Below, one piece after another: positions 39,081 through 56,862 of a stretch of 64,000 nt of DNA. The DNA is from Jiangella asiatica. Its GTDB lineage: Bacteria > Actinomycetota > Actinomycetes > Jiangellales > Jiangellaceae. Each line of letters begins with the position of its first letter. Position 1 is the stretch's first letter. A program made the position numbers and the translations under genes. The stretch lies in assembly GCF_004349065.1 (NCBI RefSeq), contig NZ_SMKZ01000026.1, positions 1 to 64,000 on the forward strand. Direction: 5' to 3'. The notes below the pieces were generated by a model, which worked only from the letters and a program-made list of their open reading frames with translations, did not search any database and had not been told where the DNA came from.

Positions 39081-41174
39081 TCAGGCAGTGGTGGCGTCGA
39101 TGATGAAGGCGAGCGTGAAGGCCTCGTCGCGCCAGGCGTCGTACCGGCCGGATGGCCCGCCGTGGCCGGCGCCCATCTCCGTCTTGAGCACCAGTGGCCG
39201 CGCGCCCGTCGCCGTCGCCCGCAGGCGGGCGACCCACTTGGCCGGCTCGTGGTAGCTGACCCGCGGGTCGTTGAGACCGGCGGTGGCGAGGATGGCCGGG
39301 TAGTCGCGGGCCTGGACGTTCTCGTACGGCGTGTACGACTTCATGTACGCATAGACCTCGGCCGACTCCAGCGGGTTGCCCCACTCCTCCCACTCGACCA
39401 CGGTCAGCGGCATCGACGGGTCGAGGATGGTCTCGAGCGCGTCGACGAACGGCACCTCGCCCACCAGCGCGGCGAACGTGGTGGGCGCGAGGTTGGCGAC
39501 GGCGCCGATGAGCAGCCCGCCGGCGCTGCCGCCGCGACCGGCCAGGCGGTCGCGCGAGGTCCAGCCGCCGGCCGCCAGGTGCTCGCCGCAGGCGACGAAG
39601 TCGGTGAAGGTGTTTCTCTTGGACAGTAGCTTGCCGTCCTCGTACCAGCGCCGGCCGAGCTCGCCGCCGCCACGCACGTGTGCGATGGCGAAGACGAAGC
39701 CGCGGTCCAGCAGCGACAGTCGCGGGATCGAGAACCACGGGTCCCGCGAGTTCTCGTACGCGCCGTACCCGTACAGGACGCAGGGCGCGGTGCCGTCACG
39801 CGGAGTGTCGCGCCGTTTGACCAGCGAGATGGGGACCCGGGTGCCGTCCGGAGCGGTGGCCCACTCGCGCGCCGACTCGTAGGCGCTCAGGTCGACGTCG
39901 CCGAGCACGGGCTGCCGTTTGCGCAGGCGCAGCTCGCCGGTGACGACGTCGTAGTCGTAGACCGACGTCGGTGTGGTCAGTGAGCCGTAGCCGAGGCGGA
40001 ACACCGACGTGTCGAACTCGGCGTTCGCGGCGGGCTGGACGGTGCGGACCGGTTCGACGAACTCGATGTCGCGGCCCTGCCCCGACGCACCGTCGACCAG
40101 TGGCACGACGTGCAGTTCCGTGCGTCCGTCGCGGCGCAGGGAGACGACCAGGTGGCCGGCGAACGCGTCGACACCGGTGACCCGGACGCCTGGGGTGTGC
40201 GGCAGCACCGGCCGCCAGTTGGCCCGTCCGGGTGCGGCGGCGGGCGCGACCACCAGCTCGAAGTCGAGAGCGTCGTGGTTGTGCACGATGTAGAACGCGT
40301 CGCCGGTGTGGTCGACGGAGTACTCCACGCCCTGCTCGCGCGGCTCCACGACGCTGAACTCGCCCAACGGATCGGCAGCCGGGAGCATCCGGACCTCGCT
40401 GGTGATCATGCTGCCGAGTTCGATGAGGACGTACTGCTCGCTGCGGGTCAGCCCGACTGTGGCGAAGAACCGCTCGTCGGTCTCCTCGTGCACGACGGTG
40501 TCCGCGGCGGCCTCGGTGCCCAGAACGTGGCGCCAGACACGGTATGGGCGCATGGCCTCGTCGACCGTGCTGTAGAAGAGCACCGAACCGTCGGCGGACC
40601 AGGCCGAGCCGTAGTAGGTGCCGGGCACCTCGTCCGGCAGGGTCGCGCCGGTGTCGAGGTCTTTGAAGCGCAGGGTGTACTTCTCGCTGCCGTCGTAGTC
40701 GGTGGAGTACGCCAGCAGCCGGCCGTCCGGGCTGACGTCGAGTGTGCCGACGGCGAAGTACGGGGAGTCGCCGGCCAGCTCGTTCTGGTCGAGCATGACC
40801 TGCTCGTCCGCGGGGGCGGCGATCGGCTCGGCGGGGTCGGCCGGCAGCGTCGGTTCGGTGCGCGAGCGGCAGTTGATGAGGTACTGGCTGCCCTCGACCG
40901 TGCGCGTGTAGTACCACCAGCCGTGGTGGAGGGTCGGCACCGAGAGATCGGTCTCGAGTGTTCGGCTCTTGATCTCGTCGAAGATCTCGTCCTGCAGCGC
41001 CTTCGTGTGCGCGGTGGCGGTTGCCGCGTAGGCGTTCTCGGCCTCCAGGTACGCGATGGTGTCTGGGTCGTCGCGGTCCTTCAACCAGGCGTAAGGGTCG
41101 ACGACGGTGTCGCCGTGCACCGTCCGCTCGTGAGGAATCTGCTTCGCGACCGGAGGGCGGGAGATCTCGGACAT
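39081..41174 (-). CDS. ptrB: oligopeptidase B (S9 family serine peptidase)
   Basis: A 697-residue peptidase. An N-terminal beta-propeller domain (about 70-420) gates a C-terminal alpha/beta-hydrolase with GRGGSAGG (Ser near 550), NDPRV (Asp near 637) and GAGHGG (His near 668). ARGGGELG is the usual HVRGGGELG here. It cleaves short peptides after basic residues in the cytoplasm. It is monocistronic; its promoter lies in the 41175-41243 gap that it shares with the divergent GntR gene. Confidence 0.92.
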   Translation of the reverse strand: MSEISRPPVAKQIPHERTVHGDTVVDPYAWLKDRDDPDTIAYLEAENAYAATATAHTKALQDEIFDEIKSRTLETDLSVPTLHHGWWYYTRTVEGSQYLINCRSRTEPTLPADPAEPIAAPADEQVMLDQNELAGDSPYFAVGTLDVSPDGRLLAYSTDYDGSEKYTLRFKDLDTGATLPDEVPGTYYGSAWSADGSVLFYSTVDEAMRPYRVWRHVLGTEAAADTVVHEETDERFFATVGLTRSEQYVLIELGSMITSEVRMLPAADPLGEFSVVEPREQGVEYSVDHTGDAFYIVHNHDALDFELVVAPAAAPGRANWRPVLPHTPGVRVTGVDAFAGHLVVSLRRDGRTELHVVPLVDGASGQGRDIEFVEPVRTVQPAANAEFDTSVFRLGYGSLTTPTSVYDYDVVTGELRLRKRQPVLGDVDLSAYESAREWATAPDGTRVPISLVKRRDTPRDGTAPCVLYGYGAYENSRDPWFSIPRLSLLDRGFVFAIAHVRGGGELGRRWYEDGKLLSKRNTFTDFVACGEHLAAGGWTSRDRLAGRGGSAGGLLIGAVANLAPTTFAALVGEVPFVDALETILDPSMPLTVVEWEEWGNPLESAEVYAYMKSYTPYENVQARDYPAILATAGLNDPRVSYHEPAKWVARLRATATGARPLVLKTEMGAGHGGPSGRYDAWRDEAFTLAFIIDATTA

Positions 41175-47049: not shown

Positions 47050-48417
47050 TCACAGGGTGGTCGACGGTGGCTCCAGCTGGCTAGGCAGCTCGGCGGGACG
47101 TGACTGCACGTCAGCGTCGGAGCCACCCAGCCGGACGGTGTTGCGGCCGGAGTTCTTGGCCGCGTAGAGGGCGGTGTCGGCCGCCAGCAGCAGCTCGTCG
47201 ATGGTGCCGATGCCCTCGGACGGGTAGATGGCGCCGCCCACCGACGCGGTGATCGAGGTGTGGGCTCCGACAGGGGCACCGTCGGGCGGATCGACGACGA
47301 TGGTCTGGACGCGGCGGCGGATGCGCTCGGCGACGTTGCGGAGGTTCTGGCGGGTGCCGACCTCCGGCAGCACCACGACGAACTCCTCTCCGCCCCAGCG
47401 GCCGCAGGCGTCCTGGTCGCGGATCTCGGCGATGAGCTCCTGAGCGACCGCCTTGAGCACCAGGTCGCCGTGTGGGTGGCCGAAGGTGTCGTTCAGCCTC
47501 TTGAAGTGGTCGAGGTCGACGATCAGCAAGCCGAGGGTTTCGCCGTGGTCCTGTGCCCGGGCCAGGGAGCGCTCGGCGAAGTCGTGCCACCAGCCCGCTG
47601 TGGCCAGGCCGGTCTTGGCGTCGATGCGCGACGCCTGTTGGTACTGGTTGAGCAGGATGCCGCGGTGCAGCGCCACCATGGCGACGACGATGCCGGGCAG
47701 CACGAACGGGTTGCTGACGACGACAGCCGCGGCCACGAGGCCGAGGCCGATGGCGCCGGCCTCGAGGAGCTGCTCACCGAAGTTGGCGAACATGTCGCGA
47801 GCGGTGGTGGTGGGCTTGGACAGTGCGATGGCCGCCATGACCAGACCCACGTTGATGGCCCACCGAGCCACGGCCGCACAGGCCACGACGCCGAGCTCCA
47901 GCAGGCCGTTCAGCGAGGCACCGCCCGGTGCGCCGGGATAGCCCGGCATGCCGAGCGCGAGGACTGCCACCGCTGCCTGGGTGCCGACCAGGACGGTCGC
48001 GCACGAGAACACCCAGCGGTATGGCAGCTTCTGCGCGTGCGGCTTCACCCGCGACCACGCCAGTGCGTAGGTGAAGATGACCATGGCCGAGGCGAAGACC
48101 GGCGGCAGCACGATGACCGCCGCGAAGCTCCAGACCGACTTGGTATCGATGTACGGTGCGGCACTGGTGCGCGCGTACTCTCGGCGGCGTTCGAAGTGGC
48201 GGGTCAGCTCGATGGCGACCGTGGCGCACACTGCGAGAACCCCGAACCGCAGGGCGTCCGTCGTGGTGACGGGCATGAGGAACGTGGTGGCCGTGGTCAC
48301 GAAGGCGCCGACGGCGACGACGATCAGGACCAGCGCGATGACAGCTCTGGGCGCTGCCCAGAGCGCCCAGCCGGCGACCCAGGAACGGGATCTTCGATAC
48401 AAGCCGTGCACTCGCAT
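47050..48417 (-). CDS. membrane-bound GGDEF diguanylate cyclase
   Basis: A 455-residue protein. About eight membrane helices fill residues 15-270, and a GGDEF domain follows with DLDHFKRLNDTFGH and the active-site motif RWGGEEF near 341. GGEEF is an active variant, so it should make c-di-GMP. The membrane part resembles MHYT/MASE-like sensors but I cannot name it. It diverges from the micro-gene array, and is one of two c-di-GMP genes near bldD. Confidence 0.9.
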   Translation of the reverse strand: MRVHGLYRRSRSWVAGWALWAAPRAVIALVLIVVAVGAFVTTATTFLMPVTTTDALRFGVLAVCATVAIELTRHFERRREYARTSAAPYIDTKSVWSFAAVIVLPPVFASAMVIFTYALAWSRVKPHAQKLPYRWVFSCATVLVGTQAAVAVLALGMPGYPGAPGGASLNGLLELGVVACAAVARWAINVGLVMAAIALSKPTTTARDMFANFGEQLLEAGAIGLGLVAAAVVVSNPFVLPGIVVAMVALHRGILLNQYQQASRIDAKTGLATAGWWHDFAERSLARAQDHGETLGLLIVDLDHFKRLNDTFGHPHGDLVLKAVAQELIAEIRDQDACGRWGGEEFVVVLPEVGTRQNLRNVAERIRRRVQTIVVDPPDGAPVGAHTSITASVGGAIYPSEGIGTIDELLLAADTALYAAKNSGRNTVRLGGSDADVQSRPAELPSQLEPPSTTL

Positions 48418-48602
48418 TCACCTGCGCAAATAGCCGTACCCCGTGAGTCGTGACGCACATACTAACCGAAAACGGGCGATCCTTGCGTGGCAGGGTGCTT
48501 CCTGATGATGGGGAGAATGAAAGCGCAATCGGACCTAACTGGTGCATACGGACATCGGTTGGCCGCCGGCCGGAAGGGGAAGCGGCAGGGAGGTGTGTCG
48601 TC

Positions 48603-48626
48603 ATGCGTGACAGCAACTGGACGTGA
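48603..48626 (+). CDS. micro-gene 1, peptide MRDSNWT
   Basis: ATG, six further codons and TGA, preceded by GGGAGGTG at 48588-48594. It is the first of five tandem micro-genes spaced 72-78 bp apart. Copies differ at synonymous positions (CGT/CGC for Arg, ACG/ACC for Thr) and by conservative Ser/Thr changes, while Met-Arg-Asp, Asn and Trp are invariant. That pattern supports translation on this strand. The possible roles are peptide precursors for an adjacent ThiF-type enzyme, secreted signals, or leader peptides. It lies alone between a divergent GGDEF gene and a convergent MFS gene; 48418-48602 should hold the promoter. Confidence 0.55.
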   Translation: MRDSNWT

Positions 48627-48675
48627 GCGAGGAGTGGGCACGGTAAGGCTCGAGCGGTGACGGGAGGTGTGCTCG

Positions 48676-48699
48676 ATGCGCGACAGCAACTGGACGTGA
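48676..48699 (+). CDS. micro-gene 2, peptide MRDSNWT
   Basis: Same peptide as copy 1 with Arg encoded by CGC instead of CGT. GGAGGTG lies at 48663-48669. The spacer before it shares CTCGAGCGG with the spacer before copy 3 (TTCGAGCGG). Confidence 0.55.
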   Translation: MRDSNWT

Positions 48700-48747
48700 C
48701 GGTGAGACCTGGTGGCGACGGTTCGAGCGGCGAAGGAGGTGCCGGCG

Positions 48748-48774
48748 ATGCGTGACACGAACTGGAACGGCTGA
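48748..48774 (+). CDS. micro-gene 3, peptide MRDTNWNG
   Basis: Eight residues; Ser is replaced by Thr and the end by Asn-Gly. GGAGGTG is at 48735-48741, 6 nt from ATG. Confidence 0.55.
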   Translation: MRDTNWNG

Positions 48775-48825
48775 GACGTCAGGAGATCGTCGATGGGCAC
48801 GAGGTGAAGAGAGGGGGCGCCGGCG

Positions 48826-48852
48826 ATGCGTGACACGAACTGGAACGGCTGA
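48826..48852 (+). CDS. micro-gene 4, peptide MRDTNWNG
   Basis: The same coding sequence as copy 3. The ribosome-binding site is GAGGGGG (48811-48817), slightly weaker than in the other copies. The flank GCGCCGGCG just before ATG nearly matches that of copy 3. Confidence 0.52.
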   Translation: MRDTNWNG

Positions 48853-48903
48853 GCGTGACCGGGGGCGTCCGTGACCGCGAGGAAGCAGAAGGAGGTGCCC
48901 GCG

Positions 48904-48930
48904 ATGCGCGACACCAACTGGAGCGAGTGA
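48904..48930 (+). CDS. micro-gene 5, peptide MRDTNWSE
   Basis: The last copy, with Thr encoded by ACC and a Ser-Glu end. GGAGGTG is at 48891-48897. It stops 22 bp before the end of the convergent MFS gene. Confidence 0.55.
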   Translation: MRDTNWSE

Positions 48931-48952
48931 CATTCGATCGAGGCCCGGCAAA

Positions 48953-50230
48953 TCACGGCTGGGCGCGTAGGTCATCGGCCTCGTCCGGCGGGATGGACAG
49001 AGTGGGGGACGAGGCCGCGCGTCGCCACCTGACGGTGGCGACCGCTGCCGCCACGGTGCCGAGAGCAGCCGCGGCGGCGATGATCGCCGACGGTGCCAGG
49101 AACTGGGCCGCGATACCGGCGAGCACGATGGCCAGACCCTGCGCTGCCCGCAGCGCGGCGATGGCGACACCGACCGCCTGACCGCGCCGGTGTGCGGGTA
49201 CCGACGCGACGTAGGCGGACTGGGTGATCATGTCGTGCGCCGAGAACACGCCGCTGAGCGTCCACAGGACGACCGAGACGGCCAGCCCGGGTGCCCACCC
49301 GGACGGCAGCAGGACCGCGCTCGTCGCGATGGCGAGCGGTCCCATGAGCGCCAGCCGGCGGTCGGGCCGGAAGCGTCGCAGCAGCAGCATGCCGATGACC
49401 GTTCCGACGGGGTTGGCGGCCAGCAGCCAGCCGACGGCGACGGTGCCGGCGTCGATCTGCCCGGCGTACGGCACGGCGAGCCCTTCGGGCACGACGTAGA
49501 AGCCCGAGCAGCAGGCGATGGCCAGCAGGGTCCGTAGCCGCGCGTCGTGGGCCACCACGCGCCAGCCGGCCCGGATGGTCTGCCACTGCCCGCCGGGCGG
49601 CACGCCATCGAGGTCGTCGGCGTCCCCAGGCAGGGACTCCCGGGGGCGGTGCGCGTTCAGCCCGTAGGCGATCAGGGCGGCCGACACCACGAACGTCATG
49701 GCGTTGATCACCAGTGCGGTGGACGTGCCGAGCTCGGCCACCAGCGCCGCACCTGCGCCGAACCCGGCCACGAGCCCGGCCTGGTAGGTGATGGAGATGA
49801 CGCCCAGCCCGAGCGTGAGCCGGTCGCCGACCAGCATGTCGGCCAGCGCGGCCTGCCGGGCGGCCGAGAATGGAGCCGCGAGCAACTGGACCAGCGCGAG
49901 CAGAGCCACCTGTCCGGCGAGCGGGACGACCGGGACGGCCATCACCACCACTAGTGCGGCCCGCGCGAGGTCGGTGACGACCATCACATCTCGGCGCGGG
50001 TAGCGATCGGCCAGTCCGGCCAGGGTGGCACCGCCGACCAGATCGGGCAGGTAGGTCAGGGCGTACGTGAGCGCCGCGAGCCCGGCGGACTCCGTGCGAT
50101 CGAACACCAGCAGCGTGAGCGCCACCCTGGCCAGCTGGTCGCCGATCACCGAGAGCGCGTGCGCGAGCCACAGCCAGCGGAACTCCGTGGCTGCGAAGAC
50201 GTCACGATAGGTGGCCGGGGAACCAGACAT
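48953..50230 (-). CDS. MFS exporter (EntS/enterobactin-exporter-like)
   Basis: A 425-residue transporter with 12 predicted helices. FRWLWLAHALSVIGDQLARV, the motif-A loop LADRYPRRDVM and a matching second half place it with the MFS_3/EntS group that exports siderophores, macrolides and peptides. It converges on the micro-gene array from the right, 22 bp away, and diverges from the acyltransferase-like gene. In microcin C7, an MFS protein (MccC) exports the modified heptapeptide; a similar role here is inference. Confidence 0.88.
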   Translation of the reverse strand: MSGSPATYRDVFAATEFRWLWLAHALSVIGDQLARVALTLLVFDRTESAGLAALTYALTYLPDLVGGATLAGLADRYPRRDVMVVTDLARAALVVVMAVPVVPLAGQVALLALVQLLAAPFSAARQAALADMLVGDRLTLGLGVISITYQAGLVAGFGAGAALVAELGTSTALVINAMTFVVSAALIAYGLNAHRPRESLPGDADDLDGVPPGGQWQTIRAGWRVVAHDARLRTLLAIACCSGFYVVPEGLAVPYAGQIDAGTVAVGWLLAANPVGTVIGMLLLRRFRPDRRLALMGPLAIATSAVLLPSGWAPGLAVSVVLWTLSGVFSAHDMITQSAYVASVPAHRRGQAVGVAIAALRAAQGLAIVLAGIAAQFLAPSAIIAAAAALGTVAAAVATVRWRRAASSPTLSIPPDEADDLRAQP

Positions 50231-50999: not shown

Positions 51000-51748
51000 A
51001 GCTAGGTGTTGATCTGATGACGAGTATCGGCCCCCGCAGTACCGCCGCTCACCCGCGCGCAGAGACCTCCGCGCTGTACCAGTTCCGTGACGAGCCGTCC
51101 CAGACCTGGCTGCGCTTCTACACCCCCGCGCGCCGGTTCGACCTCTGGGACGAGTACGTCGCGGGCGCCAGGCGGACCTATCAGCGCTACCGGGTCGAGA
51201 GCGCACTCAAGATCCCGCCGGCCACGGCGGACTCGCCCGGCCCCTTCTACGCCGTCGCCTCGGACGACGATGGCGTGGTGCGGGGCGGCTGGTACACCAA
51301 CGGCCGCCTCGACTCCGTCACGAGCGCGCATGCGCCGTCGGAGTTCGCCAGTCAGCCGTACTCGGCGGCGATGGTGGCCGACTGGATCGACGGCGTGCTC
51401 GACACCGGTGTCATGGAGATGAAGGGCGCCTGGGTCGACCCCGCCTCTGAACACAAGTCCGCGCTGGCCGACCTGCTGGCCCGCTCGTACCTGCACGCCC
51501 TGCACGTCGTCGGGGTGGCCTACGCGTTCGGGACGGCGGCCGAGCACGCCGCGCCGCGCTGGGGACAGTCCGGTGCGCGGTCGCTCGACGGCCTCGTCCT
51601 CGCGACCTACCCGGACGAGCGGTACCGCACCACGTTCCTCTGGTGGCACGTCGATGGGTCGCCGGAGCTGTGCGCGCCGGAGCAGCGGGAGCTGTACGAG
51701 GCCGAGCGCCGGCAAGCCCTCGGGCGGGACCCCGAGGCGCGCCCATGA
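50996..51748 (+). CDS. acyltransferase-like (GNAT/FeeM-type) protein, tentative
   Basis: A 250-residue protein. The layout suggests a GNAT or N-acyl-amino-acid-synthase fold: VVRGGWYTNGRLDSVTSAHA, GVMEMKGAWVDPASEHKSAL, ARSYLHALHVVGVAYAFGTA, then YRTTFLWWHV. No motif is strong enough for certainty. GTG 50996 has GGAG two bases upstream; ATG 51017 and ATG 50936 are in frame. Its stop overlaps the ThiF-nitroreductase start by ATGA, so the two products probably work together. Confidence 0.5.
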   Translation: MKLGVDLMTSIGPRSTAAHPRAETSALYQFRDEPSQTWLRFYTPARRFDLWDEYVAGARRTYQRYRVESALKIPPATADSPGPFYAVASDDDGVVRGGWYTNGRLDSVTSAHAPSEFASQPYSAAMVADWIDGVLDTGVMEMKGAWVDPASEHKSALADLLARSYLHALHVVGVAYAFGTAAEHAAPRWGQSGARSLDGLVLATYPDERYRTTFLWWHVDGSPELCAPEQRELYEAERRQALGRDPEARP

Positions 51749-53898
51749 CGGAGGACCCTGCCCCAGAAGCAGCGTGGCGACCGGTCCACGTCGACGATCC
51801 CGAGAAGCTGGCCGACCTGCGCCGCAATCCGGGGGTCGCTGTCATCGACACGATCGACCAGCAGCGGCGCGACCTGGCCCGGATGCTGCCGTCGCCGGTT
51901 CCTGCCCACCTCGACGAGCCCAGCCGCTGGTACCACTACCCGTGGCGGCGAGCCGTCGTGCACGTTCTCGGTCCGGGCGGCTTCCAGGCGCTGCGGTCCG
52001 ACCGCAACCGCAACAAGATCACCGCCGAGGAGCAGCGACGCCTGCGCGAGCTCACGATCGGAGTGGTCGGGCTGAGCGTCGGCCACGCCATCGCACACAC
52101 GCTGGCGCTCGAGGGCGTCTGCGGACGCATCCGGCTGGCCGACTTCGACCACATCGAGCTGTCGAACCTCAACCGCATCCCGGGCACGGTCTTCGACCTC
52201 GGCCTCAACAAGGCGGTCGTGCTCGCCCGCCGCATCGCCGAGCTCGACCCATACATCGACGTCGAGATCGAGCCGCGTGGCCTGGACCTGGACACCGCCG
52301 ACGCGTTCATGACCGGCCTGGACATCGTGGTCGAGGAGTGTGACGCGTTCGACCTCAAGGTCGCCGTGCGCGACGCCGCGCGCCGGCACGGGGTGCCGCT
52401 GGTCATGGAGACCAACGAGCGCGGCCTGCTGGACATCGAACGGTACGACCTGGAGCCGGACCGGCCGATGTTCCACGGCCTGCTCGGCGATGTCGAGCCG
52501 AAGCGGTTGATCGGCCTGTCGACGCACGACAAGGTCCCCTACGTCCTGCGGGTCCTGGAACCCGACGAGCTCACCGCGGTCATGGCCGCCTCGATGACCG
52601 AGGTCGACGAGACGCTGAGCACCTGGCCGCAGCTGGGCGGAGACGTCAGCCTCGGCGCGGCGACGGTGGCCGCCGCGGTCCGGGCGCTCGGTCTCGGCCG
52701 GGCGCTGCCGTCGGGCCGGGTGCGGGTGGATGTCGAGGCGCTGCTCGGCAAGGTCGCCGAGCCGCCCCGGCCGCCGGACCTGGTCTCCGCCGCCGCGCGC
52801 GAGGTCGCGCCGGAGCAGCCACCGGCGGGGGCCTGGGACGCCGTGGCGCACGCCGCACGGATGGCACCGTCGGGCGGCAACACCCAACCGTGGCGCTTCG
52901 CAGTCGACGAGACCGGTCTGGACATCCTGCTCGACCCGGCGCAGACCTCGACCCTCGACGTCGCGTTCCGCGGCAGCTACGTGGCCATCGGCGCGGCGCT
53001 GTTCAACGCCAGGGTCGCCGCGGCCCGGCACGGCCTCCTGGGCGTGGTCGAGATCTTTCCGGGCGGCGGGGCTCGCGCGGGCCGGCCGGACGGCGCCGAC
53101 GACGACGCACCGGCGGCGCGGCTGCGCTTCGGCGGCGATGCCCCGCAGGAGCTGGCCGGACTCTACGAGTCGATGCTCGACCGGGTGTCCAACCGACACC
53201 TCAACCGGCCCGGAGCACTACCCGGCGACGTGGCGCCGGCGCTGGTGCGGGTGGCCCGGGCGGAGGGCGGCGACGCGGTCGTGGTCACCGACCGCGACAC
53301 GCTCACCGAGCTGGGCGAGCTGATGGGCGAGTCGGACCGGCTGCGCTACCTCACCCCGCACCTGCACCGCGAGATGATGCGCGAGCTGCGCTGGCCCGGC
53401 ACCGACGACCTGGCGTGGGGCCTGGACGTGCGGACGCTCGAGCTCGACGACTCCGACCTGGCGAAGCTGGCGGTGGCGCGGCGCGCGGACGTGATGGGCG
53501 TGCTGGCCGAGCAGGATCTGGGCCGGGCGCTAGGGGAGCCGACCCGCGACCGCGTCGGCGGGGCCGCCGGGCTGGTGGTGGTGACCGCCGACGGCACCCG
53601 GCCAGCCGACTACGTCCGTGCCGGGCAGGCCGTCGAGCGCGTCTGGATCGAGGCCGAACGGCACGGCTTGGCGGTGCAGGCGATGTCGCCGGTGTTCATC
53701 TTCGCCGTGGACGACTCCGACTACGAGGAGCTGTCACCGCGATACGCGCCGCGTTTACGGCAGCTTCGCCGGGTATTCGCCGATCTGAGCGGAACGACCG
53801 ACCGGGCCATCGCCCTCGTGATGCGTATCGGATACGCTCCGTCGATCAGCGTCCGAAGCCGCCGCCTGCCTGCAGACCGAACCGTACGGACGCGTTGA
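51745..53898 (+). CDS. ThiF/E1-like adenylating enzyme fused to nitroreductase (Rv1355c-type)
   Basis: A 717-residue protein. Residues about 100-320 are an E1/ThiF domain: GVVGLSVGHAIAHTLALEGV (nucleotide loop), RLADFDHIELSNLNR (Asp and Arg), LGLNKAVV (Lys) and EECDAFDLK (Asp). No CxxC zinc pairs are seen. Residues about 390-700 are an FMN nitroreductase fold (ARMAPSGGNTQPWRF). Rv1355c of M. tuberculosis has the same fusion and also lies next to a GGDEF-EAL gene. E1 enzymes adenylate a C-terminal carboxylate; the substrate here is unknown. ATG 51745 overlaps the previous stop. Confidence 0.82.
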   Translation: MTEDPAPEAAWRPVHVDDPEKLADLRRNPGVAVIDTIDQQRRDLARMLPSPVPAHLDEPSRWYHYPWRRAVVHVLGPGGFQALRSDRNRNKITAEEQRRLRELTIGVVGLSVGHAIAHTLALEGVCGRIRLADFDHIELSNLNRIPGTVFDLGLNKAVVLARRIAELDPYIDVEIEPRGLDLDTADAFMTGLDIVVEECDAFDLKVAVRDAARRHGVPLVMETNERGLLDIERYDLEPDRPMFHGLLGDVEPKRLIGLSTHDKVPYVLRVLEPDELTAVMAASMTEVDETLSTWPQLGGDVSLGAATVAAAVRALGLGRALPSGRVRVDVEALLGKVAEPPRPPDLVSAAAREVAPEQPPAGAWDAVAHAARMAPSGGNTQPWRFAVDETGLDILLDPAQTSTLDVAFRGSYVAIGAALFNARVAAARHGLLGVVEIFPGGGARAGRPDGADDDAPAARLRFGGDAPQELAGLYESMLDRVSNRHLNRPGALPGDVAPALVRVARAEGGDAVVVTDRDTLTELGELMGESDRLRYLTPHLHREMMRELRWPGTDDLAWGLDVRTLELDDSDLAKLAVARRADVMGVLAEQDLGRALGEPTRDRVGGAAGLVVVTADGTRPADYVRAGQAVERVWIEAERHGLAVQAMSPVFIFAVDDSDYEELSPRYAPRLRQLRRVFADLSGTTDRAIALVMRIGYAPSISVRSRRLPADRTVRTR

Positions 53899-53917: not shown

Positions 53918-56152
53918 ATGAAGATGGACCCCGAGACCATCCAGCCCCTGCTGAAAGCGTTGGCAGAGGCCACGGACAGCATCTCCGCCGACGTGCTGGC
54001 CGTCGGGGGCGGCATGCCGCTGGTGTCCTGGGGGAGCGCGACGACGGCCGGGGTGTCGGGCAGTGCGTTGACCGAGATGCGCGAGGCGATCCGCGGCATC
54101 ACCGCCCGGGTCGTCCAGCACGGCGACGACGGCGTGGTCGAGACCGATCAGACCGTCGGCCACCAGCTGCTCGCCACCGGGCTGAGCTATCACGACTTCC
54201 ACGGAGCGGTGTGCCTGGTCCGCGGCCTCGACCGTCCGTGGCGCGCCAACGACCGCACGCTGCTGGCGATGGCGGGCGCGTTGTGCGCCGCCGTCATGGA
54301 GGCCGGTGAGGTGCCCGGCCAGTACGGCCGCCTCGACGCGCTCGTCACTTATGTCGCCTCCGAGCTGATGGGCGTCTCCACCACCGACCGGGCCGAGACC
54401 ACCCACCGGGTGCTGGGCGAGCTCGGCCGCTACTTCGGCGCCGACACGTGCGTCCTGCGGCACAACGACCCGGAGAAGCGGGCCAGCATCCTCATCGACG
54501 AGTGGCCGCGCCGGGAGCACATCCCCGACCCCGACCCGCTGGGCGAGGTGCCGTGGGACACCGACGATCCCATCTTCGCCATGATCAAGGACTTGCGCGA
54601 GCCGTTCATCCTCCGCCCCGGCGACGGCCAGCACGACTACCAGGAACGGGTCGAAGCGGGCTCGGGCGTCCCCGAGGTGTCAATGGCCACCGTCCCCCTG
54701 ATCGAGGGTGACGTCACCCGTGGCGTGCTCGGTCTCATCCATTTCGGCGACCGCATCTGGACCCGTGCCGAGGTTCGTGCGCTGCGCGCCATCGCCTCGC
54801 TGTTCGTGCAGCTCGACGGGCGGGTCACGGCCGAGGAGAGCCTCCACCACCAGGCGTACCACGACGAGCTGACCGGCCTGTGGAACCGCCGGGCCTTCGT
54901 CGAGCACCTGAGCACCGTGCTGACCAATGACCCGCAGGCTCCGCTGGCGGTGCTGTTCGCGGACATGGATCGGCTCAAGACCGTCAACGACGTCCTCGGC
55001 CACGCCATCGGCGACAGCTTCATCCGGCAGGTGGCGCAGCGGCTGCGCGAGTCGGTGCGGCCGCACGACGTGGTCGCCCGGCTGGCCGGCGACGAATTCG
55101 TCATCGTGCTCCACGGCATAGGCTCGGTCGCAGCCGCCGAGCGGGCCGCCCGGCGCATCCTCGACCGGGTGGCCGAGCCGCTCGAGGTGGGCGGGCACTC
55201 GATCAGCCGTAGCGCCAGCATCGGCCTGGTGGTCAGCGGCGACATCGCCAGCACCGCCGATGAGCTGCTGAGCAATGCCGATGTCGCTCTCCTGGAGGCG
55301 AAGGATCGGGGTGGTGACTCCGTGGTCACGTTCAACGACGAGCTGCGGTCCAAGCTGCTCAACCGAGCTGATCTCGAACTACGGCTGCGCACCGCCATCA
55401 GCGACAACCAGATGCGGTTGTACTTCCAGCCCGAGTTCGACCTGCGCGACGGGCGGCTGACGGCGGTCGAGGCGCTGGTGCGCTGGCAGCACCCCGAGCG
55501 CGGACTGCTCGCCGCGGAGTCGTTCGTCTCCGTCGTGGAGGAGATCAACCTCGCGGCGGAGCTGGGCCGCTGGGTTCTGGAGGAGGCCTGCCGGCAGCTG
55601 TCGGTCTGGAAGAGCACATCGTCGGTGCCGCCGCCGGTCGTGCGGGTCAACATCTCCGCCGGAGAGCTGATCAGCGCGGACTTCGTCGGGTTCGTCGCCA
55701 CGTTGCTGAGCAGGTACGGCCTGGCGCCGGCCGAGCTGGGCATCGAGATCACCGAGGGCACGGTGATGCGTGAGCTCGACGACGTGCAGGCCACGCTCAA
55801 CGGGCTTCGCGGCCTCGGCGTCACGCTGGCCATCGACGACTTCGGCACCGGTTACAGCTCGCTGGCCCAGCTCAAGCAGCTGCCGGTCGACATCCTGAAG
55901 ATCGACCGCAGTTTCGTCTCGGCGCTGGCCGAGAGCAGCGGGGATCGCGCCATCGTCGCCGCGATCGTCCGGCTGGCCGAGGCGTTCAACCTGACGACAG
56001 TCGCGGAGGGGGTGGAGGATCCGGCCGCGGTGACGACCCTGCTGGACCTGGGTTGCTACCGGGCGCAGGGCTTCTTCATGTCGAAACCGCTGCCGGCACA
56101 GGTGGTTCTGGAGCAGGCGCGGAATCCCGGCGTTCCGCTGCGGATGGCGTGA
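53918..56152 (+). CDS. GAF-like/GGDEF/EAL c-di-GMP enzyme (Rv1354c-type)
   Basis: A 744-residue protein. A GAF-like sensor lies at about 140-290, then GGDEF (DMDRLKTVNDVLGH, motif AGDEF near 390), then EAL (AVEALVRWQHP near 516, FGTGYSSLAQLKQLPVDILKID, EGVEDPA). Both motifs look competent, so it may make and degrade c-di-GMP. It is 19 bp after the ThiF-nitroreductase gene, as in mycobacteria. bldD, which encodes a c-di-GMP effector, is the next gene. Confidence 0.9.
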   Translation: MKMDPETIQPLLKALAEATDSISADVLAVGGGMPLVSWGSATTAGVSGSALTEMREAIRGITARVVQHGDDGVVETDQTVGHQLLATGLSYHDFHGAVCLVRGLDRPWRANDRTLLAMAGALCAAVMEAGEVPGQYGRLDALVTYVASELMGVSTTDRAETTHRVLGELGRYFGADTCVLRHNDPEKRASILIDEWPRREHIPDPDPLGEVPWDTDDPIFAMIKDLREPFILRPGDGQHDYQERVEAGSGVPEVSMATVPLIEGDVTRGVLGLIHFGDRIWTRAEVRALRAIASLFVQLDGRVTAEESLHHQAYHDELTGLWNRRAFVEHLSTVLTNDPQAPLAVLFADMDRLKTVNDVLGHAIGDSFIRQVAQRLRESVRPHDVVARLAGDEFVIVLHGIGSVAAAERAARRILDRVAEPLEVGGHSISRSASIGLVVSGDIASTADELLSNADVALLEAKDRGGDSVVTFNDELRSKLLNRADLELRLRTAISDNQMRLYFQPEFDLRDGRLTAVEALVRWQHPERGLLAAESFVSVVEEINLAAELGRWVLEEACRQLSVWKSTSSVPPPVVRVNISAGELISADFVGFVATLLSRYGLAPAELGIEITEGTVMRELDDVQATLNGLRGLGVTLAIDDFGTGYSSLAQLKQLPVDILKIDRSFVSALAESSGDRAIVAAIVRLAEAFNLTTVAEGVEDPAAVTTLLDLGCYRAQGFFMSKPLPAQVVLEQARNPGVPLRMA

Positions 56153-56197: not shown

Positions 56198-56364
56198 GCG
56201 GGCTGAACAGGTAGCGGACAGTCGGTGATCAATAGGCGACGATTGCCCGGTATTCTCTGGATTGTCCCGGGTACGTATCCGGGGCCTGCCAAGGGGGGCG
56301 CGGCGCAGGCGTGCTGGTGAGGGCGAATCAGTACGGAGGACGAGGCACCTTGGGGAGCTCGACG

Positions 56365-56862
56365 ATGAACGACGGCAGTCCGGACTCGACCGAGGAGGAC
56401 TTCGCTAAGGTCGTGGGCGCGCGGCTGCGGGCGCTGCGCAAGCGCCGGCGGCTGTCGCTGCAGGCTGTGGAGGAGAAGTCCGGTGGCCGGTTGCGCGCGG
56501 TCGTGGTCGGCTCGTACGAGCGCGGCGACCGGGTCGCATCGATCCGCCGCATCGCCGAGCTCGCGGAGTTCTACGGTGTACCGGTCGACACGCTCGTCTC
56601 CGACGGCGCACGGTCCAGGATCCCGGCGCAAGAGGGGAAGCTGGTCATCGACCTCGACGCGCTACGCAACGCGCCGCCCGAGGCCGAGCGGCTGGCCACC
56701 TTCGTGGCCTCGATCCAGCGCCAGCGCAACGACTTCGGCAGCCCGGTTCTGACCATCCGGGCCGAGGACATCTCGCTCGCGGCACTGCTCTACGAGATCC
56801 CGCCGGCGGAGCTGCGCGAGAAGCTCGTGACGTGGGGCGTGCTGGCCCCGCGCGGCACCTGA
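56365..56862 (+). CDS. bldD: BldD developmental regulator
   Basis: A 165-residue BldD orthologue. The N-terminal XRE domain reads [32 protein letters not shown] and [13 protein letters not shown]. The C-terminal c-di-GMP domain has RND (121-123), eight residues, then RAED (132-135), which keeps the R-x-D-x8-R-x-x-D binding signature although Streptomyces has RGD and RQDD. In Streptomyces a c-di-GMP tetramer holds BldD as a dimer to repress sporulation genes. ATG 56365 has GGGGAG at 8 nt. Confidence 0.92.

Follow-up and report, generated by a model that had tools for sequence, protein, structure and literature searches.

Five short tandem units on a contig of Jiangella asiatica raise the question of whether they encode peptides or form a DNA repeat, and, if peptides, what products of this size might do. 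The window analyzed is the whole stretch of 64,000 nucleotides. The units are as follows:

48603..48626, plus strand, micro-ORF 1, MRDSNWT, Shine-Dalgarno (SD) sequence GGAGGTG at 48589-48595
48676..48699, plus strand, micro-ORF 2, MRDSNWT, SD at 48663-48669
48748..48774, plus strand, micro-ORF 3, MRDTNWNG, SD at 48735-48741
48826..48852, plus strand, micro-ORF 4, MRDTNWNG, weaker SD GGGGGCG at 48813-48819
48904..48930, plus strand, micro-ORF 5, MRDTNWSE, SD at 48891-48897

The start codons are spaced by 73, 72, 78, and 78 nt. The first-pass annotation described an array of five micro-genes at 48603-48930, each with an SD, an ATG, and a stop, and this description holds in its coordinates and peptides, with matches far above chance. 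The pattern ATGCGNGAYNNNAAYTGG has five matches in the window when up to one mismatch is allowed, compared with 0.06 expected, and 0 of 100 shuffles reach five. Without a mismatch, the array is its sole occurrence in the 7.03 Mb genome. GGAGGTG was stated to precede four of the five units, which is correct; copy 4 differs, carrying GGGGGCG. The statement that copies differ only by synonymous or Ser/Thr changes is partly right. It is true of M-R-D-[ST]-N-W and false for residues 7 and 8, which vary non-synonymously (T, NG, or SE), so the constant part is restricted to M-R-D-[ST]-N-W.

The codon pattern was searched for in 60 relatives. Besides the window genome (G000), matches are present in G005, G007, G012, G021, and G037. 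Arrays occur in two of 11 same-genus genomes, with eight copies of MRDNNWN in G005 and four copies reading MRDVNWT or MRDSNWT in G007. Phytoactinopolyspora alkaliphila (G021) contains an array and P. halophila (G012) a single copy. The match in G037 (L010) lacks a nearby stop and was rejected as chance. A scan of genome contigs for an SD and core returned 14 records, 12 from Amycolatopsis and two from Phytoactinopolyspora.

The copies carry marks of translation. Among 438 copies collected at the DNA level, ATG, GTG, or TTG is in place in 406 and an SD in 423; the seeds had a start and an SD, the copies were exempt from either, and many come from related genomes. In 37 arrays, 45 of 185 columns at the third codon position are variable, compared with nine of 185 at the first and 13 of 185 at the second; the excess at third positions over the other two combined has a Fisher p of 1.6e-9. 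The variable codons comprise 37 synonymous and 14 non-synonymous cases, and about 85% of columns vary in the flanks up- and downstream of the copies. The copies in these arrays were chosen by at least three of four core residues, a choice that favors synonymous change. Start codons are ATG (148), GTG (62), and TTG (2), and are mixed within 20 of the 37 arrays. The ATG/GTG swaps and the third-position variation, along with ORFs containing two to seven cores, indicate selection on the peptide.

RNA of the array folds less well than its own shuffles (z +2.25), giving no sign of conserved RNA structure. At the gathering threshold, Rfam lists only a tRNA in the window and no match for the array. 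With no Rfam match besides tRNA and folding below shuffles, the reading of the array as an RNA element was rejected. The first-pass annotation had read the units as selected peptides, not a DNA repeat. It proposed to look in relatives for SD, start, core, and stop and to compare codon positions, and held that RNA pairing conserved instead of codons would refute the reading. The claim stands: SD, start, core, and stop are retained in relatives; variation is greater at third than at first and second positions, as the peptide reading predicts; and neither folding nor Rfam gives a sign of RNA structure. Judged from sequence alone, and without expression data, the micro-ORF products are almost certainly selected, translated peptides.

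The array belongs to a three-part module of micro-ORFs, a divergent membrane GGDEF protein, and a major facilitator superfamily (MFS) transporter, established here from sequence alone. The receptor and transporter were absent from the earlier annotation, as was the fact that cores fall into many types (62 as assigned here), with MRDSNW being just one. The other features of the window module are:

47050..48417, minus strand, proposed cognate receptor, Pfam GGDEF 2.7e-37, divergent to the array
48953..50230, minus strand, MFS transporter, proposed peptide exporter, Pfam MFS_1
48455..48519, no strand assigned, candidate divergent promoters in the interval between receptor start and array

The last block is partly conserved in 12 same-genus loci and contains the motifs CACATA.TA..GAA and GACAATG (GAGAATG in the window); its function is unsupported by any test. 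No sigma-70 promoter or intrinsic terminator was found by consensus in 48300-49100.

Neighborhoods of 19-20 kb were compared for 14 loci, the window and 13 relatives. The membrane GGDEF protein divergently adjoins the array in all 14, and the array ends against an MFS gene in 13, the exception being P. halophila (L043), which lacks the MFS. Up to 15 core matches are found at one locus. No gene families other than the receptor and the MFS are common to at least three loci each of the window's family and Amycolatopsis; therefore, no peptidase or modifying enzyme is linked. As a control, the window and 13 loci were cut into 818 tiles, which gave 15 matches. Fourteen are the arrays themselves, and the remaining one is a 60-nt tandem repeat in L044. 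In P. alkaliphila, an assembly gap (N) falls within the first receptor's array, and a second receptor lies beyond the MFS (L042:11182-12522, minus strand) with no array found upstream.

Is the pairing also found when the search starts from the receptor? A sensor-domain profile was built and genomes were searched without using the peptide. The sensor is present in 75 of 393 sampled genomes of the class, spread over 35 of 137 genera, in all 80 genomes of the genus of A. jejuensis, and in 106 of 397 genomes of its order. The window genome contains a single receptor of this type. Matches covering fewer than 180 model positions were left out, and near-identical sensors with the same core segment were merged, leaving 183 (152 at the stage of the lax and strict array counts). 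The upstream regions of these 183 distinct sensors represent part of all sensor matches. Receptors with too little upstream DNA were left out: seven of 183 for the Trp-6 count, seven of 168 newly found, and seven of 152 for the lax-rule count.

An automatic array, a micro-ORF with Trp at residue 6 (Trp-6), or a repeated-core ORF is present on the divergent strand of 118 of 161 receptors and on the other strand of none. This count covers receptors with 700 nt upstream and excludes the 15 receptors of the 14 loci found through the peptide. The MASE9 controls (n = 26, after four of 30 loci were dropped) have none on the divergent strand and two on the other. Strict tandem arrays occur in 87 of 145 divergent regions vs. 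0 of 145 on the other strand, and in 29 of 57 testable clusters after clustering at 60% identity. A Trp-6 micro-ORF alone is found in 97 of 176 divergent regions; the opposite strand gives 0 of 176, and shuffles give 8 of 1760. A lax rule, satisfied by a strict array or by any 4-mer repeated within an ORF of up to 75 codons, gave matches in 108 of 145 divergent regions, but also in 10 of 145 regions of the opposite strand and in 65 of 1450 shuffles. It was given up for the stricter rules because of this noise on the other strand and in shuffles.

A single micro-ORF or a whole array is often present on a receptor's divergent strand. Of 183 receptors, 159 received a core, in part through visual assignment, and these cores comprise 62 tetrapeptide types, 53 with a terminal Trp and nine without. 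Rules determined the assignments apart from 17 non-Trp cores and roughly ten corrections made by eye. Support is weak for 45 of the 159, which rest on one copy, a non-Trp match, or visual assignment. The rules gave no core for 24 of 183 receptors, three of which have an MFS. At these three (L117, L130, and L189), receptor and MFS are accompanied by no recognizable micro-ORF, perhaps due to loss of the peptides or to cores missed by the rules.

The repertoire varies with lineage. The window's family has MRDNTWT, MRDTTWS, MRDNKWSR, MRGNSWD, and MRANSWD, and Amycolatopsis has MRENNW, MRNKDW, MRDKGW, MRGQNW, and MRNRES, as well as multi-core ORFs such as MSNARGNEWTRLPGNEWTRFLGNEW... Other genomes of the order contain MNNHGW, MLDNWRWP, MRNRDN, VNSNSW, VSDRDF, and an ORF with seven NQGW. 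More distant members of the class have MSSGVQWI, MLRGVTWT, MRGVNWV, and similar peptides, mostly as single copies. Single ORFs hold two to seven cores, including PTDW ×5, GNEW ×6, STDW ×6, and NQGW ×7. Cores that come either as separate genes or in tandem within one ORF are hard to reconcile with a DNA or RNA function, and a peptide accounts for them best. One genome may carry different cores, such as DNNW, NKDW, and NKDL in G068, DNNW, PTEW, and GNEW in G414, and DNTW and GNSW in G003 (loci L058 and L080). Mixed cores are also seen at single loci. A single ORF upstream at L197 contains DSNW ×3 and DAHW ×2, and DKIW and DRTW lie side by side at L192. These may possibly be intermediate steps of a specificity change.

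If peptide and receptor are partners, the core should change with the sensor. Over 1504 receptor pairs, core difference correlates with sensor identity at r −0.68 and with GGDEF identity at −0.44. The partial correlation with the sensor is −0.585 at constant GGDEF identity, and that with GGDEF is 0.02 at constant sensor identity. A Mantel test gives rho 0.50 (p 5e-4). Eleven of 248 sensor columns exceed r 0.2, vs. 0 of 171 GGDEF columns. Six of them lie at residues 80-97, and the others are 120, 185, 223, 224, and 246. The pairs are not independent, the GGDEF half is more conserved, and the permutations leave phylogeny in. Shared descent is nonetheless no simple explanation of the contrast, since both halves belong to one gene. 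For the MFS, the partial correlation of identity with core difference, sensor constant, is positive (+0.33), giving no sign that the pump matches the peptide.

The best NCBIfam match of the MFS is TIGR00900, below cut-off, and EntS is also weak. Of 108 receptors that have an MFS upstream, 107 have it on their own strand, and the presence of a core and of an upstream MFS is associated (69/11 vs. 3/7, p 3.5e-4). An MFS is missing from 11 of 80 core-bearing receptors, including P. halophila (L043). This number is an upper bound, because tblastn finds MFS sequence in five loci (L118, L191, L195, L199, and L211).

The receptor is composed of a membrane sensor (approximately residues 1-260) followed by a GGDEF domain with the motif GGEEF. 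It is inferred from this domain and motif to be a diguanylate cyclase, and its synthesis of c-di-GMP is likewise an inference. Pfam GGDEF is found in 30 of 30 receptors scanned and the motif GG[DE]EF in 116 of 123 representatives. Seven lack the motif, five of them being the GNEW group, so cyclase activity may not be universal. The receptors of the GNEW group (L125, L126, L127, L129, and L132) have no standard GG[DE]EF, and could conceivably be inactive cyclases that keep cognate multi-core peptides.

Pfam lists no match for the sensor half of the window protein at E up to 10, and PF20972 (MASE9) has no match in G000 at 1e-5. PF20972 matches three of 30 receptors of relatives, with a best E of 5.3e-5. 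The sensor is thus at most a remote MASE9 relative, with the window domain below cut-off. An AlphaFold2 model made with 28 sequences gives the sensor a mean pLDDT of 90.3. Among 998 PDB chains aligned with VIA-align, the ten best rows are energy-coupling factor (ECF) S components for small ligands or CbiM, with Z of 9.0-12.5 and rmsd of 3.4-4.3, followed by MreD (Z 8.2) and then 6.1. Helical models can reach a Z of about 13 by chance. Foldseek gave no significant match (best E 0.18; TmRibU at E 0.22, probability 0.97). The model thus predicts an S-component-like fold, which is likely but not proven, because helical models reach such Z by chance and Foldseek is non-significant.

Loop charges are +1.1 at residues 69-92, +2.9 at 122-133, and +0.8 at 198-212, and about zero or below at 43-50, 154-166, and 232-240. 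From hydropathy and charge, the loops matching S-component loops 1, 3, and 5 are inferred to lie on the GGDEF-bearing, cytosolic side. The loop orientation of S components in transporters is the reverse of this. If the specificity loops are indeed cytosolic, sensing may take place within the cell, either before the ligand is exported or once it has been taken up again. Such a face, inferred from the same two properties, sits badly with a simple extracellular pheromone.

We propose that the array makes several copies of a very short peptide with the core D-S/T-N-W, which would be the genetically encoded cognate ligand of the neighboring membrane diguanylate cyclase. The S-component-like sensor would bind the core, with the usual Trp as a common anchor and residues 1-3 determining specificity, and binding would change the GGDEF domain's synthesis of c-di-GMP. 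Export of the peptide would most likely be the task of the MFS pump, and the system would then signal cell density or act between cells. Where one genome holds paralogous modules with different cores, these would be parallel channels. Selection on peptides with translation marks, the three-gene module, and the covariation of core and sensor are shown by sequence; ligand binding, c-di-GMP control, export, and secretion are inferred, and no expression, binding, or enzyme data exist. Taken as a whole, the cognate-ligand explanation has a slight edge over its being wrong. A bolder reading adds a large family of encoded tetrapeptide signals, mostly xxxW, that occurs in several actinomycete families and tunes c-di-GMP via membrane cyclases of the S-component-like kind, with parallel channels per genome and possible sensing at the cytosolic face. 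As a joint claim, it is only marginally more likely to hold than to fail.

Three rivals are unlikely, and a fourth is weaker still. In the first, the peptides are minimal RiPP precursors of a biarylitide-like product, which the MFS exports, and the cyclase only regulates the cluster. An M-R leader followed by a core, multi-copy precursors, and an adjoining MFS resemble minimal RiPP clusters. However, the core and the cyclase's sensor domain covary, only the receptor and MFS are common to at least three loci of both groups, and no P450 is present in the scanned window neighbors or the Amycolatopsis families, although a modifying enzyme elsewhere in the genome remains possible. The scans detected no P450 or peptidase as a linked partner. 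P450 is absent from 14 window ORFs within about 10 kb, picked by codon bias so that a gene could be missed, and from ten families common to the Amycolatopsis loci; a further family of 1838 aa was outside the scan.

In the second, the peptides act only within the cell, as a short-lived reporter of translation or efflux state that binds the cyclase on its cytosolic side, and the MFS clears them; there is no cell-cell signal. The specificity positions lie mostly on the positively charged, GGDEF-bearing side, the micro-ORFs are too short for a secretion signal, and there are several gene copies. Against this, the topology rests on charge and hydropathy alone, and secreted signals usually come with a linked pump and with ligand-receptor pairs that diverge.

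In the third, linkage alone produces the peptide-sensor correlation, and the peptides serve, for example, in cell-wall or membrane binding. The genes are adjacent and co-inherited, and permutations do not remove phylogeny, but with the sensor held constant, neither the GGDEF half nor the linked MFS accounts for changes in the core. The last, that the repeats are DNA or RNA elements (operators, or decoy or leader ORFs) controlling the divergent receptor gene, draws on their position beside the receptor start and on the commonness of repeated short sites as operators by regulated genes, but is very unlikely given start swaps with kept frame, stop, and SD, synonymous variation, multi-core single ORFs, RNA folding below shuffles, and flanks that are about 85% variable.

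Returning to the cognate-ligand reading, several known systems share parts of it. Biarylitide precursors have five residues and an 18-bp gene, bytA (PMC13417212). They share with the present peptides a tiny ORF, a two-residue leader, an aromatic core residue, and an actinomycete origin (PMC13417212). They differ in being M-x-Y-x-H/W precursors with two aromatic cross-link positions, whereas the window peptides have seven or eight residues and one Trp; here, the scanned neighbors contain no P450, the Trp is usually single, and a membrane GGDEF protein is the constant partner. Gram-positive pheromone systems (RRNPP, with Phr, PapR, and PrgX; ComRS; Agr) place a ribosomal peptide beside its receptor in diverging pairs. 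The present modules likewise encode a short ribosomal peptide beside a dedicated receptor, with diverging specificity pairs, but the proposed receptor is a membrane GGDEF protein and not a TPR regulator or histidine kinase, and the precursors have 6-15 residues or are multi-core ORFs of fewer than 75 residues. No TPR was found in Pfam scans of the window neighbors and 30 receptors. MASE9-GGDEF proteins (PF20972), a remote match, also place an N-terminal membrane sensor ahead of the output domain, but other actinobacterial MASE9 lack divergent-strand micro-ORFs (0 of 26). ECF S components (RibU, BioY, and ThiT) resemble the predicted sensor fold, with Z of 9.0-12.5 where chance may give about 13, but the sensor has an extra hydrophobic helix at each end, a GGDEF fusion, and a membrane-inverted orientation by charge. 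No EcfT or EcfA is present among the 14 window neighbors scanned.

GGDEF, MFS, the S-component fold, and very short ORFs are known parts. New within the literature searched is a family of micro-ORF peptides that pair and covary with a GGDEF protein's sensor. The open-access literature searched contains no description of the system, and the claim that no such family is described holds to that extent; a subscription report or preprint could exist. To our knowledge, and in that literature, no diguanylate cyclase has a peptide ligand encoded by a gene, and the signals detected by membrane sensors of this type are for the most part not known. Quorum sensing was reported in only 25 of 342 actinobacterial genera in a 2016 review (PMC4748050). 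If the proposal is true, this is an undescribed peptide-signaling system in actinomycetes with genes among the shortest known, and gene order suggests which peptide belongs to which receptor. The system would be invisible in annotation, because standard gene finders probably overlook genes of 21-27 bp.

Other genes of the window are of possible relevance. A prolyl oligopeptidase (39081-41174, minus strand) lies about 8 kb from the array. A trimming role for it is unsupported, because it has no relative in the other 13 loci. On the plus strand, a GAF-GGDEF-EAL protein (53918-56152) lies about 5 kb from the array, and a BldD-like regulator (56311-56862) about 7 kb. A Rv1355c-family protein is encoded at 51643-53898, and the pair it forms with the GAF-GGDEF-EAL protein resembles the mycobacterial Rv1354c-Rv1355c neighborhood. 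BldD is a c-di-GMP-controlled regulator of Streptomyces development, and with these two genes close by, the read-out may be encoded nearby. The BldD-like protein matches Pfam BldD-like_C (1.8e-19) and, in the PDB, 2ewt, 4oaz, and others. Its C-terminal domain reads RND...RAED, which we take to be at the position of the c-di-GMP motif of Streptomyces BldD. The BldD-like family is also found near the arrays of two same-genus genomes.
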